A DNA stretch of 64,000 bases from the NCBI RefSeq assembly GCF_038738535.1, contig NZ_CP046128.1:2914001-2978000 (forward strand), written 5' to 3'. This document shows, one piece after another, positions 23,425 to 39,758 of the stretch. This DNA comes from Bacillus pumilus. Lineage in GTDB: Bacteria; Bacillota; Bacilli; Bacillales; Bacillaceae. A program made the translations under genes and the position numbers. Numbering within the stretch: position 1 is the first letter of the stretch; the number at the start of each line of letters is the position of its first letter. A model generated the notes under the pieces. The model ran no database searches. It was not told the origin of the DNA and worked only from the letters and a program-made list of their open reading frames with translations.

Positions 23425-23448
23425 CCGACTGCATTCTAAAAGTTTTGA

Positions 23449-23808
23449 TGGAGACGGTGGGAGTCGAACCCACGTCCAGAGACATCGATTACTTAAGCGT
23501 CTACGAGCGTAGTCAACATATTTCGTGTTCACTCATCCGCATGCCTGCTGACGGGCGCTTGGAGAGCTAGTCTGATGGATCTCTTCTTACGTCCTCAGAC
23601 GGAAACGTAAGCGTAGCCTACTTCATTGGGCTCCTCACAGACACATAGGCGATGTCAGGAAGAGCTCGCTGCACTTATTAGGCAGCTAGTGCTAAGTTTT
23701 GGTTAAAACTTTTAGTTTTGCCAGTTACATTTAAGTGCGTGTTAACGAGATCGCCTCTCGGCTCGCAGCCTAAGCTCGAACCATCCCTGTCGAATCCGTA
23801 ACGTCCCC
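23449..23808 (-). ncRNA. ssrA: tmRNA (transfer-messenger RNA)
   Basis: About 360 nt. The 5' end GGGGACG (23808 down) pairs with the 3' CGTCTCC (23456-23450) to form the acceptor stem. The 3' part reads as a T-arm (GTGGGTTCGACTCCCAC). CCA is not encoded. The internal tag frame reads GKTKSFNQNLALAA followed by TAA, close to the B. subtilis tag AGKTNSFNQNVALAA. With SmpB (encoded just upstream at 23985) it rescues stalled ribosomes and tags the products for proteolysis. Confidence 0.95.
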
Positions 23809-36382: not shown

Positions 36383-36406
36383 CTATTTGCTCAGCCTGCT
36401 TTTTTT
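36374..36406 (+). terminator. Terminator of yvbK
   Basis: GCAGACTGA (36374-36382) pairs with TCAGCCTGC (36391-36399), followed by a T run that reaches the stop codon of the converging gene. Confidence 0.75.
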
Positions 36407-36686
36407 ATGCTCTTCGCTTTTTCACAGCTTGAATCACATATTGAATGAAAAAGTAGAGCACAGCGCCAGCTAAAAAGCAGACAACGCATCCAAAAAGCGT
36501 CGCCTCTGAGCTGAATTGATACTCTTCAATTTTCATGATATAAAATGGCATGCCAAACAGTGTCGGACTTGATTCAACATGATTGACTTCTAGCAGCATT
36601 AAAAAGACAGGGGTCATAAACACAGCAAATATATACAGCATCGCAAGTGTTAAGCCGCTAGAAAACGAATGAAATACTTTGATCAT
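36405..36686 (-). CDS. Small two-helix membrane protein, last gene of the peptide/ABC cassette
   Basis: A 93-residue protein with two strong hydrophobic segments (residues 10-33 and 63-84) and a basic end (VKKRRA). I do not recognise a family. It begins at an ATG overlapping the stop of the M50 protease gene (ATGA) and so belongs to the same operon. The size and topology recall small immunity or accessory membrane proteins of bacteriocin loci, but that is inference from context only. Confidence 0.7.
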   Translation of the reverse strand: MIKVFHSFSSGLTLAMLYIFAVFMTPVFLMLLEVNHVESSPTLFGMPFYIMKIEEYQFSSEATLFGCVVCFLAGAVLYFFIQYVIQAVKKRRA

Positions 36687-37051
36687 CTTTTTCTCTCCTT
36701 CATCTCTTTTAAACTGGCTGTGATATTTTTCCCGTCTGGGCAAGCTGGATGCAGCATCACAGTGTTCAGTAAAGAAAAAAACAGCAGCTGATGACTCACC
36801 GGATGCTTCCACATCAAAAAAAGCACACTCGAGCAGAGCACCGGAAACAGCGGACCCGCAAGTGCCACCATCAGATTAAAGCTCGGCCGGTCAAATGTCT
36901 CATGGACGATCGCCACATGCTTCCAATCAATCGTTACCACAAAATCAAAGAGCTGCCTTTTTTCGAGTTTGTTACACACCATGATCATCAGCATATGACC
37001 GAGTTCGTGAATTAGTACAACCGCTAGTAAACTAATGACAAGCCCCATCAT
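36683..37051 (-). CDS. Small M50-type membrane metalloprotease
   Basis: A 122-residue integral membrane protein with the zinc-binding HELGH motif at residues 15-19 in its first helix. It has a family-like NLMVALAGPLFP segment (59-70) and a second-metal-ligand type motif LHPACPDGKNI (100-110, Asp106). These are the elements of site-2 protease (M50) enzymes, cut down to minimum size, as in B. subtilis YydH. The start ATG at 37051 overlaps the permease stop (ATGA), with AAAAAGG about eleven bases before. It may cut the cassette peptide within the membrane. Confidence 0.75.
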   Translation of the reverse strand: MMGLVISLLAVVLIHELGHMLMIMVCNKLEKRQLFDFVVTIDWKHVAIVHETFDRPSFNLMVALAGPLFPVLCSSVLFLMWKHPVSHQLLFFSLLNTVMLHPACPDGKNITASLKEMKERKR

Positions 37052-38445
37052 CGCAATACAGGCCTTTTTAACATCGCAGCATATATACAACTGAAAAAGG
37101 CAAGTGAACCAAGCAGATAAGCGGTGGCGAGAAGAGACACATCAGATGAAAGCCATTCTAATAAAAGCATATCGATAAAGCTGAATACAGCAATCATCAA
37201 CACGATCACAAACAGCTTATTAAAATCACTGATTTTCACGACAAACCCTGTACAGGCCGCCATGGCGGTAATCAATAAAATGGACAAACTCGCCAATCCA
37301 TGACCTTCACTTTCAATACCGATCACCAAATAGGCAAGCCCAATATACACAAAATATGTCAGCAGATTAATGGTGTAATAAAATAACATTCTCGACATTA
37401 AATAAGCGCCCTTTGATGTATTTAACATAAAGATGGCCCTTTGATTGATATGATATTCCCTGCCAATCATCAGCGGAAGCATGATCAATATTTCCTTTAA
37501 CGCAAACTGCACAATAAAGGCATACAGCCAGCCAGTTTCTGCCGGTGTAAAAACAAATGGCAGCCCCACCGTCAAACAAATGAGAAAGAGAAACAAAATG
37601 CCTTGCTCTTTAAAAACAGCTGATCGGCTGAAATAGACCAATTCCTGCCGCAGATGTGTCAGAAAGGAAGAGTGCGTTCTGATTTTCTGGTAGGAAAACG
37701 ACTTCACCTCTGTTTTCAGCTGCAAAAACATCTGATGAACATAGCAAGCTGCTAAACCCTTCACCCATAGCCATCCAGCGCTTAGGATGATGACAAGTAA
37801 CAACAGATAGACAGCCGGCCATACATGGATCATCTCCACCGCTTTTTGAAAAAGGAGAAATATTAGTACATGAAGCGCCCCAAAGCCGATCGTTTGAAGC
37901 AGCAAATGCTCTTTTGTTTTTGATACGAAATGGCTCACACCGATCCGCAGCAGCATCCAAGAAGCGAGCGTATACAGCGCCAATATGCAGCAAGTGATGC
38001 AAACAACGATGATCCAATACAGAGATGGGGTGACACCCGTGATCAAAAGACCTAATACAATCGGTAAAAAAAGCAGTCCAGCCATGAGGAAGCAAAAGAG
38101 CACTGGAAAGAAATACACGCAAAGGATAAATGGCACACTCTGAATCGCACTGTTTAAAAAGTAGAATTGATATTCTTGGCGCTTCAATTTATTGCGGGAT
38201 AACACAATACCTGCCCCTAATAGTAAGAGCGACATTTTGACAAATTGGAGGTATAGCGCAGCTGGCTCGTTTTCACCTGCCTGCATGAAAAAGCGCAGGC
38301 TAATGACGACGTATATCGCATAGATCAGTAAGAGAAAAACGGCAGCTGCGAGAAGCTGTAAAGGATATTTTTTTCCAAGCTGTTTTCCTTTCGTTGTCAG
38401 CATGCCCCATTCTAGTTTATGAAGAACGTGTCGTGTCCAAATCAT
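37048..38445 (-). CDS. ABC transporter permease of the peptide cassette
   Basis: A 465-residue protein with about ten to twelve hydrophobic helices and few polar loops. It has no family signature I can name. It directly follows, with a 29-bp overlap, an ABC ATPase, and overlaps the M50 protease gene by ATGA. It is most like the membrane partners of two-component exporters and self-immunity pumps (SkfF or ABC-2 type). It probably exports or expels the small peptide encoded first in the operon. Confidence 0.75.
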   Translation of the reverse strand: MIWTRHVLHKLEWGMLTTKGKQLGKKYPLQLLAAAVFLLLIYAIYVVISLRFFMQAGENEPAALYLQFVKMSLLLLGAGIVLSRNKLKRQEYQFYFLNSAIQSVPFILCVYFFPVLFCFLMAGLLFLPIVLGLLITGVTPSLYWIIVVCITCCILALYTLASWMLLRIGVSHFVSKTKEHLLLQTIGFGALHVLIFLLFQKAVEMIHVWPAVYLLLLVIILSAGWLWVKGLAACYVHQMFLQLKTEVKSFSYQKIRTHSSFLTHLRQELVYFSRSAVFKEQGILFLFLICLTVGLPFVFTPAETGWLYAFIVQFALKEILIMLPLMIGREYHINQRAIFMLNTSKGAYLMSRMLFYYTINLLTYFVYIGLAYLVIGIESEGHGLASLSILLITAMAACTGFVVKISDFNKLFVIVLMIAVFSFIDMLLLEWLSSDVSLLATAYLLGSLAFFSCIYAAMLKRPVLR

Positions 38446-39184
38446 TGAGTAACCTCTCCACCTGCATATAGTAATCTCGATTCACTTCTTTATAAATCTC
38501 TTCAAGTGCCTGATGAGGAAATGTCTGAGTCGTTTCTTGGCGGGACATATTCAGCTTGACGTCACCATTTCTTAAGATCATGAGATGGTCATATAATGTA
38601 TCACCAAAGCTCAAATGATGAGTTGATATAAGAATGCCAGCGCCTTGATCTCTCAGCTTCATGAGCACCTTTTTTAAGATGATCATCATATCTGGATCAA
38701 GTCCGTTTGTTGGCTCGTCGAACACATAATAATCACATGGTCTGAGGAGCTGCGAAATGATCTGTGTTTTCTTTTGATTGCCATGGGACAGCTGAGCGAT
38801 TGGCTGATCCATATATGGACTCAGCTCAAACAAATCGGTGAATGTCTCTTCTCGTGTGACATCTTGCTCATTTGGCAGCTGAAGTAATTGAAAGTATTCC
38901 CTCGGTGTTAAATAATCGAACAACGCATGATCGTCAGGAATATAGGAAACATGTTTTTTCAAAAGGGAAATATGAGCTGAGGATTGAAGGTTCAGCTGTT
39001 CGCCATGTAAGGAAACGTACCCAGTAAATGGCGTCAGCCCAAACATGGCTTGGATCATCGTTGTCTTTCCTGCACCATTATGCCCTAAAAGAAGCATCGT
39101 CCGGCCTTTCTCCACGTTCATTTGAATATTGCGGAGAGAGAAGGTGCGGCTATACGTTTTTTCTTGTAATTGTAATGTCAGCAT
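38417..39184 (-). CDS. ABC transporter ATP-binding protein of the peptide cassette
   Basis: A 255-residue ATPase. Walker A GHNGAGKTT (about residues 34-42), signature LSHGNQKKTQ with a His in place of the usual second Gly, Walker B YYVFDEPTNGLDP and switch His in ISTHH. It is of the CcmA/drug- and lantibiotic-immunity type. The second of two ATG codons (39184) gives the better distance to GGAGGG. The permease gene starts inside its last codons. Confidence 0.88.
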   Translation of the reverse strand: MLTLQLQEKTYSRTFSLRNIQMNVEKGRTMLLLGHNGAGKTTMIQAMFGLTPFTGYVSLHGEQLNLQSSAHISLLKKHVSYIPDDHALFDYLTPREYFQLLQLPNEQDVTREETFTDLFELSPYMDQPIAQLSHGNQKKTQIISQLLRPCDYYVFDEPTNGLDPDMMIILKKVLMKLRDQGAGILISTHHLSFGDTLYDHLMILRNGDVKLNMSRQETTQTFPHQALEEIYKEVNRDYYMQVERLLNDLDTTRSS

Positions 39185-39209
39185 CATATCCCTCCGTTTG
39201 TTTCAGATG

Positions 39210-39233
39210 GAACAGATGACCTTTCATCTGTTC
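39210..39233 (-). repeat. Stem-loop between the small peptide gene and the ABC genes
   Basis: GAACAGATGA (39210-39219) pairs perfectly with TCATCTGTTC (39224-39233) around a 4-base loop, with no T run. It sits 10 bp after the peptide gene stop, a place where processing or partial termination often boosts a precursor peptide over its transporter. Confidence 0.6.
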
Positions 39234-39242
39234 TCATCCCTG

Positions 39243-39512
39243 TTAGAACCCGCATTGGATTTTAACGTACATGCCTAATAATTTGAACTCTCCTAAAAAT
39301 TTGGAGCCCTTTCCAAAGGTCTTACATGCCCAAATCAATGCTCCAAGTGAAATAATGCCCAATATAGCGGCAAGGACATAAATCCAAAATGCGTTTTTCT
39401 GTACATTCTTAGAAGTCAGAATTCGTTGCTTCCTTTCATCATATGCCGCCAATAGGTGAAGGACATACATATACACACCTACTGGAAAACGAAGGCTAAA
39501 AGGATTCAGCAT
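39243..39512 (-). CDS. 89-residue single-helix peptide, candidate processed bacteriocin or signal precursor
   Basis: A small protein with a polar, charged N-terminal part (about residues 1-40), one hydrophobic helix (41-62, WIYVLAAILGIISLGALIWA) and a basic, Gly- and Lys-rich tail holding two Cys (C63 and C87) and ending CGF. AGGGGGTGA precedes the ATG closely. It is the first gene of a five-gene set with an ABC exporter and a membrane protease. I know no family. The two Cys could form a disulfide loop in a mature peptide. A membrane scaffold for the transporter is the alternative. Confidence 0.7.
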   Translation of the reverse strand: MLNPFSLRFPVGVYMYVLHLLAAYDERKQRILTSKNVQKNAFWIYVLAAILGIISLGALIWACKTFGKGSKFLGEFKLLGMYVKIQCGF

Positions 39513-39711
39513 CTCATCACCCCCTAATATATGTAAAATGATACCACCCCCTTACAGAAAGCATAAGTTCATTTCAGATCATATTTTTAGTCGATTTTTC
39601 ATGATTTAGTGCTTATAAATGGAGGGGATTTTGACTTCTTCTCTAACTGAAGGAGGATTTTTTACAAAAATAGGATAAGACAAATGAATTAGCTATCGGA
39701 TTTCGCTCAAC

Positions 39712-39758
39712 AAAAAAAAACGCTGCGTCCCGCTCTCATGAAAGAGCGGGACGCAGCG
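39712..39758 (-). terminator. Terminator of the glycolytic operon (after eno)
   Basis: A perfect 16-bp stem (39721-39736 with 39743-39758) is followed on the minus strand by nine T at 39712-39720. Very strong. Confidence 0.92.

Follow-up and report, generated by a model that had tools for sequence, protein, structure and literature searches.

What do the five genes on the minus strand between yvbK and the glycolytic operon of Bacillus pumilus produce, and do they belong to a described family? In the window (the whole 64,000-nucleotide stretch of DNA that was analysed), the five open reading frames agree to the base with the initial annotation in place, size, order, and overlaps (Table 1). That annotation proposed a ribosomally made, intramembrane-processed antimicrobial or signalling peptide with self-protection but recognized no member of a described set; the kind of product is supported through homology to the TMcins, whereas the second statement does not hold because the cassette matches the TMcin operon (PMC12328743, PMC13252029). 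TMcins entered the literature in 2025 (PMC12328743), and a preprint of June 2026 reported how they are made (PMC13252029); TMcin anatomy comprises a Trp-flanked helix, two Cys residues around a C-terminal two-strand loop, a DUF3267 protease, an ABC pair, and a two-helix protein (PMC12328743, PMC13252029). Based on gene content, gene order, conservation, motifs, the profile homology of the precursor and protease, and the standing of canonical TmcB as the closest paralogue of the ATPase, the cassette is very probably (about 90%) a divergent TMcin-type operon in the order tmcA-B-C-P-E and the second TMcin-type cassette of this genome.

Table 1. Features of the cassette and its upstream region (positions in the window)
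Feature	Position	Strand	Evidence
tmcA-like precursor, 89 aa, ATG start	39243..39512	-	ORF; one hydrophobic segment; Cys63 and Cys87
Predicted leader, residues 1-40 (inferred boundary)	39393..39512	-	Alignment to mature TMcin-G1905
Predicted mature peptide, residues 41-89, Trp43-helix-Trp61, Cys63...Cys87 (inferred)	39246..39392	-	
tmcB-like ABC ATPase, 256 aa	38417..39187	-	Pfam ABC_tran, E 2e-22
tmcC-like ABC permease, 465 aa	37048..38445	-	Position, size, 11 hydrophobic segments (simple scan)
tmcP-like minimal S2P/DUF3267 protease, 122 aa from ATG	36683..37051	-	HELGH at 15-19, PDG at 105-107
tmcE-like two-helix protein, 93 aa (escort; candidate immunity)	36405..36686	-	Two hydrophobic segments; position and size of canonical TmcE
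Ribosome-binding site AGGGGGTG of tmcA	39518..39525	-	Read from sequence
Possible extended -10 promoter TGGTATCAT	39538..39546	-	Read from sequence
eno terminator, between cassette and glycolytic operon	39721..39758	-	17-bp stem and T run

A 55-bp gap separates tmcA from tmcB, while tmcB and tmcC overlap by 29 bp, and tmcC/tmcP and tmcP/tmcE by 4 bp each (ATGA). When the upstream regions were read by eye, AGGGGGTG or AGGAGGTG was seen before tmcA in 15/15 regions and TGGTATCAT was exact in 11/15; the latter is absent from the promoter-scan list, and the RNA element search of the cassette returned none.

Within the genus, 15 of 44 genomes carry the permease, and the precursor peptide was found in the identical 15, a co-occurrence that argues against a chance assembly. 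All five proteins were matched at each of the 15 fetched loci, with 70.5-98.9% identity to the window among the 14 relatives, yvbK was in reach at every one of them, and eno lay within the 4.4-kb stretch at 14. The initial annotation had named conserved occurrence of the peptide apart from transporter and protease as one finding that would speak against its proposal; in the genus, all 15 genomes (of 44) with the peptide also had the permease, and the protease was present at 15/15 loci. The cassette is nearly fixed among close relatives, being present in 15 of the 17 genomes whose eno is at least 94% identical and lost by deletion in the other two. Searches bearing on a mobile origin gave no match among plasmids for the cassette DNA or for the permeases of the window and G308, nor among phages for the G308 permease, and a class-wide search of 398 genomes yielded four matches and no new cassette.

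The precursor contains a single hydrophobic segment (residues 42-60), and the Trp43 and Trp61 residues flanking the helix are invariant in 15/15 members of the clade, as in a Trp-flanked transmembrane helix; the distant relative G048 lacks the second Trp. Cys63 and Cys87 are likewise invariant at the 15 loci, and both are also kept in the four distant relatives that were aligned. In an AF2 model of low confidence (mean pLDDT 54), a helix spans residues 37-66 and strands span residues 71-76 and 81-86, so that the two Cys residues would bracket a C-terminal two-strand loop as in TMcins. Profile-profile comparison with canonical Bacillus TmcA by hhalign gave E 3e-5 (probability 73), a score reached by 0/100 and 0/100 shuffles of two kinds, which supports homology of the precursor to canonical TMcin precursors. 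The direct match to TMcin-G1905 of Staphylococcus aureus is weak: the published peptide scored 13.5 bits against the mature-part profile (reached by 0/2000 full and 7/2000 stricter shuffles) and 14.0 bits against the full-length profile (0/2000 and 2/2000, respectively), and with TMcin-G1905 as the query the canonical genes were retrieved and that of the window was not. The mature TMcin-G1905 starts with AWF according to its publication, and the alignment puts Ala41 of the window's precursor at this start, immediately after the motif QKN. The predicted mature peptide, residues 41-89, would have a monoisotopic mass of 5381.93 with the disulfide. One peptide search returned 18 matches, of which eight (four of the window's group together with G048, G191, G209, and G308) stood apart from ten weak ones, and another gave only weak matches beyond the 15 known genomes; a QxN(A/S) motif is kept in 8/8 aligned divergent precursors, four of which belong to the window's clade. 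A structural component of the ABC transporter, in a system where nothing is processed or secreted, could also have a single helix and be conserved alongside the transporter in 15/15 genomes, but the hhalign homology to TMcin precursors, the conserved QxN(A/S) motif, and the Cys pair and gene position, which resemble those of TMcin loci, make such a role very improbable.

The remaining genes were compared with their canonical counterparts. Canonical TmcB is the closest paralogue of the window's ATPase: of the 84 further matches within the genome, it scored best (93.3 bits; next match, 81.5 bits). In the protease, His15, Glu16, His19, and Asp106 are invariant in 15/15 sequences, giving an HExxH motif with a distal Asp. 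Its match to Pfam DUF3267 (E 1.2e-4, 22.8 bits) lies below the cut-off of 27.1, as do the scores of divergent and third-type proteases alike. The hhalign comparison with canonical TmcP gave E 3.6e-4, or 9.9e-6 with a wider profile, and with neither profile was the score reached by any of 60 shuffles of either kind, which supports homology of the two proteases. From an alternative TTG start, the window's protease would have 135 residues. The permease showed no significant match to canonical TmcC (E 0.073), and weak local bridges through the third type (E 0.0035 and 0.0027) were obtained without a shuffle control. In the case of the fifth protein, the comparison with canonical TmcE gave E 0.035, little better than the mismatched controls (E 0.078 for A6 against A13 and 0.36 for A8 against A10), and the score was reached by 2/100 and 14/100 shuffles, or by 19/100 and 58/100 with the wider profile. 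Descent of the window's tmcC and tmcE from the canonical genes could thus not be established from their sequences.

TMcin-G1905, encoded by tmcA, B, C, P, E, and D, shares with the window the Trp-flanked helix, the Cys loop, a DUF3267-type protease, the ABC pair, and the two-helix protein. The aligned mature parts are 28% identical, the leader is 45 residues in G1905 and predicted to be 40 in the window, where the protease has 122 residues, and the window's cassette contains neither tmcD nor a regulator gene; tmcD is missing outside staphylococci (PMC13252029). The canonical Bacillus TMcin operon of the same genome (G000 contig 1, about 874.5-878.2 kb) has the A-B-C-P-E order, the kind of peptide, and the 93-residue fifth protein seen in the window. 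In contrast, its leader is probably about 20 residues rather than 40, its protease is a 301-residue protein with a PqqD-like domain that the window's protease lacks, and its tmcC and tmcE have no significant sequence match to those of the window. A canonical precursor occurs elsewhere in 14 of the 15 cassette genomes, in two of which the complete canonical operon was read, and the A-B-C-P-E order was found at 8/8 fetched chromosomal canonical loci; at a canonical-type Peribacillus plasmid locus, A, B, and C were found and P and E were not. Divergent cassettes of other genera (G191, G308, G048, and G209, the last divided between two contigs) retain both Cys residues. A third type (G781 and G758) combines a TMcin-like peptide with the gene order A-B-C-P-E, and its fifth gene was picked up by the window's family profile (E 2.9e-8 and 6.7e-8). 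For loci L106, L107, L109, L110, and L111, the comparison relied on tblastn and alignment. This probable operon shows that one genome can hold two different TMcin-type operons, and it brings into the TMcin family a divergent type of the B. pumilus group whose protease is very small.

The initial annotation had also pointed to likeness with skf and yyd, which fits less well. The skf operon of B. subtilis encodes a small peptide, a membrane protease, an ABC pair, and a radical SAM enzyme, and yydFGHIJ resembles the cassette in its small peptide, membrane protease, and ABC pair and differs by the radical SAM enzyme YydG. An epipeptide- or sactipeptide-like system that borrows its modification enzyme from elsewhere would share this outline, but no radical SAM match was listed by Pfam or NCBIfam for the five cassette proteins and two flanking ones (for the ATPase, among the best 25 of 199 NCBIfam matches), and such a system is scarcely credible here. 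An epipeptide or sporulation killing factor was not favoured, as its enzymes were not found among the seven scanned proteins. Circular bacteriocins are defined by a DUF95/SpoIIM-type membrane protein and a known circular precursor; neither had a Pfam or NCBIfam match listed in the cassette (again among the best 25 of 199 for the ATPase by NCBIfam), and this family was likewise not favoured, its enzymes not being found among the seven scanned proteins.

Whether the peptide is aimed at other species can be approached through its conservation. Near-fixation is less usual for a weapon, and the cassette is nearly fixed; within the clade, the precursor is 77-99% identical to that of the window, a higher range than those of the permease (71-92%) and the protease (73-93%), as could be expected of a signal or cannibalism factor aimed at kin. 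However, the precursor does not stand out, since the ATPase and the fifth protein are equally conserved (83-98% and 82-96%, respectively), and the deletions in 2/17 genomes are also compatible with a weapon. Furthermore, the S. aureus system of the same anatomy kills many Gram-positives (PMC12328743), and a kin-directed role is rather unlikely.

As a TMcin-type system, the cassette could act in the course published for the S. aureus system, with leader removal by an intramembrane metalloprotease, ABC export, and a Cys disulfide, all supported by homology. The 89-residue precursor would be held in the membrane through its single helix, and a host oxidoreductase may form the Cys63-Cys87 disulfide. 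The 122-residue protease, aided by the 93-residue protein, could then cleave near N40/A41 to release a peptide of about 49 residues, which the ABC pair would draw from the membrane and export. In the membrane of a neighbour, the peptide may assemble into a beta-barrel pore ringed by helices, an assembly that the 93-residue protein could stop in the producer; in our own reading, this protein may also guard non-producing cells.

The role of the fifth gene deserves separate consideration. Leader removal requires TmcE, the counterpart of the fifth protein by position, which was named an escort; loss of TmcE phenocopies that of TmcP, and similar helpers were proposed for other DUF3267 proteases, immunity being outside the scope of that study (PMC13252029). 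The fifth gene may accordingly be a mere escort, with solo copies serving other DUF3267 proteases, a reading that stands at a little under an even chance. TmcE was reported with a three-stranded sheet (PMC13252029), which was not seen in the AF2 model of the 93-residue protein; this model, of modest confidence, has helices at residues 2-36 and 60-92 and no strands in the loop between them.

We tentatively propose, at less than even odds, that the fifth proteins form a family of membrane-embedded caps that neutralize TMcin peptides inside the membrane, the gene being retained as an immunity gene in cassette decay and occurring as a solo resistance gene in Bacillales. If true, this would supply the missing self-immunity of TMcins, and decayed cassettes and solo fifth genes are natural experiments by which the open question of self-immunity becomes directly testable. 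In decayed cassettes, the fifth gene can outlast tmcA and tmcP, being intact in G019 and G148 and truncated in G034. In G148, the reading frames of tmcB, C, and E are open, tmcA is not recognized, and the tmcP region has lost its motifs; in G019, a deletion has removed most of A, B, C, and P but left tmcE and the former promoter region. Both cases speak against a pure escort, although use in trans is possible in each. The pairwise dN/dS of the G019 copy (0.17-0.38, as against 0.05-0.10 for G013 and the cassette holders) indicates relaxed constraint, which is in keeping with an escort and makes G019 less than a strong case for immunity. The decayed cassettes that keep the fifth gene, together with solo copies under selection, nevertheless suggest an added protective role: relatives of the fifth gene are apparently solo in 9 of the 22 Bacillales genomes having one, and purifying selection was found in two solo pairs.

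The five-gene cassette on the minus strand is most plausibly a divergent TMcin operon, in which the genes for a precursor (tmcA), an ABC ATPase (tmcB), a permease (tmcC), a protease (tmcP) and a two-helix membrane protein of 93 aa (the fifth gene, tmcE-like) follow one another. The five ORFs, reread from the sequence, lie where the initial annotation had placed them, with 55 bp between the first and second genes and overlaps of 29, 4 and 4 bp among the others. A terminator scan of the window placed the eno terminator ahead of the cassette, and a GNAT gene, which we take to be the yvbK named in that annotation, adjoins it in convergent orientation. In the available text of a June 2026 preprint on TMcin biosynthesis (PMC13252029), leader removal is assigned to TmcP, export to TmcBC and disulfide formation to TmcD, which is described there as absent outside staphylococci, and the two-helix TmcE is regarded as an escort.

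Coordinates of the cassette and of related or neighboring features
Feature	Location	Strand	Remark
Divergent TMcin cassette	window 36405..39512	minus	tmcA, B, C, P, E
Fifth gene (tmcE-like)	window 36405..36686	minus	93 aa
tmRNA gene	window 23446-23808	minus	
Second, canonical TMcin operon, same genome	G000 contig 1, about 874.5-878.2 kb (L104:6499-10181)		outside window
Canonical-type TMcin precursor, Peribacillus muralis plasmid	L112:5944-8657		missing from the record's gene table
Solo fifth-gene relative with upstream genes	L176:4371-7292		
Solo fifth-gene relative with upstream genes	L177:6725-9644		

Profile comparison of the divergent type with the canonical type, the one matched by the published peptide, connected the precursors at E 3e-5, a score equaled by 0/100 column shuffles and 0/100 local shuffles, and the proteases at E 3.6e-4 (0/60 and 0/60 shuffles), which improved to 9.9e-6 with wider profiles (again 0/60 and 0/60). 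Canonical TmcB was the best of 84 other matches of the ATPase in its own genome, at 93.3 bits against 81.5 for the next, and the permeases of the two types gave no match. The fifth proteins gave a non-significant E of 0.035 (score reached by 2/100 and 14/100 shuffles), a value of little meaning because two mismatched control pairs gave 0.36 and 0.078, and wider profiles worsened it to 0.14 (19/100 and 58/100). A third type, found with the same gene order in G781 and G758, lies between the other two: its TmcB is 35% identical to that of the window and 31% to the canonical protein, compared with 28% between window and canonical. The fifth genes of this type were found blindly by the window-family profile (E 2.9e-8 and 6.7e-8), exactly at the expected fifth-gene place, and its precursor matches both other types weakly, at E 8e-4 and 2e-4 without shuffle control.

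In the alignment, the published mature peptide, given as 52 residues in the available part of the 2025 description (PMC12328743), begins opposite residue A41 of the window's precursor, and a QxN motif before A41 is common to all eight divergent precursors aligned, four of them from the window's clade. The predicted product has 49 residues and a computed monoisotopic mass of 5381.93 Da with a disulfide. An AlphaFold2 model of the precursor (6 close sequences) suggests, with low confidence, a helix at 37-66 and two strands, and that of the fifth protein, at modest confidence (mean pLDDT 62.5), two helices and an unstructured loop; the alignments behind both models consisted of the window and five loci.

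The permease was found in 15/44 genomes of the genus and the peptide in the identical 15, and all 15 fetched loci carry the complete five genes in a single order, with yvbK within reach in 15/15 and eno inside the fetched stretch in 14/15. When the clade is roughly defined by an eno identity of at least 94% (17/44 genomes), 15 of its 17 members have the cassette. Five loci drawn from a separate collection name the bearers as B. pumilus, B. safensis, B. altitudinis, B. australimaris and Bacillus sp. 28A-2. In one clade genome (G025, L122), the gap from eno to the precursor gene is about 1 kb longer than in the others.

The published 52-residue peptide matches 24/44 genus genomes at E <1e-7, and the window-type cassette is absent among all places so matched. 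The match in the window's own genome, at 874.5 kb of contig 1, falls in a canonical operon, and the order tmcA-B-C-P-E was seen in 8/8 fetched chromosomal canonical loci. Among the 15 carriers of the window's cassette, 14 also show a canonical precursor match (exception G043); a full canonical operon was seen in two of those 14, the window's genome and G013, and the remaining six of the eight loci come from genomes lacking the window's cassette. The plasmid-borne precursor of Peribacillus muralis is accompanied by ABC genes and a seemingly cut-off protease gene.

G019 and G034, the clade members that lack the cassette, both have a canonical precursor match and show separate deletions. By eye, G019 retains the promoter region, a tmcA scrap, the tmcP end and an intact fifth gene at 66% identity, and the fifth gene of G034 is retained in truncated form. 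Constraint on the G019 fifth gene is relaxed. In G148, from a different family, B, C and E are retained, tmcA was not recognized and the active-site motifs are gone from the tmcP region (by eye). A fifth-protein search of 397 genomes of the order found a relative in 22: five of the window's group, four with other divergent cassettes (one, G209, split over contigs with its ATPase not seen), the two of the third type, G148, nine apparently solo (G102, G116, G128, G275, G303, G323, G701, G759 and G764), and G117, whose relative lies at a contig end and was placed in no class. No divergent or canonical tmcA, tmcC or tmcP profile matched the 14-kb stretch fetched around each apparent solo, in a scan that also overlooked the third-type tmcA and tmcC and detected the third-type tmcP, which the profile included; ORF lists of these stretches likewise lacked the five-gene arrangement. 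Pfam gave no family matching more than one of 20 fifth-protein family members scanned, and literature searches on TMcin and on DUF3267 with bacteriocin found no report of solo fifth genes.

Two solo pairs show an excess of synonymous changes, G323/G128 with dN/dS 0.15 (p 9e-6) and G701/G759 with dN/dS 0.35 (p 0.008); neighboring genes are more strongly constrained (0.03-0.04). The available text of PMC13252029, which by its own statement leaves self-immunity outside its scope, proposes that binding of TmcE to the peptide would prevent peptide assembly; a protein that did so and was retained alone under selection would match the expectation for an immunity gene. The competing possibility, that the fifth protein assists other DUF3267 proteases, has a similar probability. 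Orphan bacteriocin immunity genes are a known phenomenon. In G323 and G128, another ABC pair lies upstream of the solo gene. By eye, L176 and L177 carry apparent genes for an ABC ATPase, an ABC-2-like permease and a cupin-like protein followed by the solo relative, a group that might form one resistance operon.
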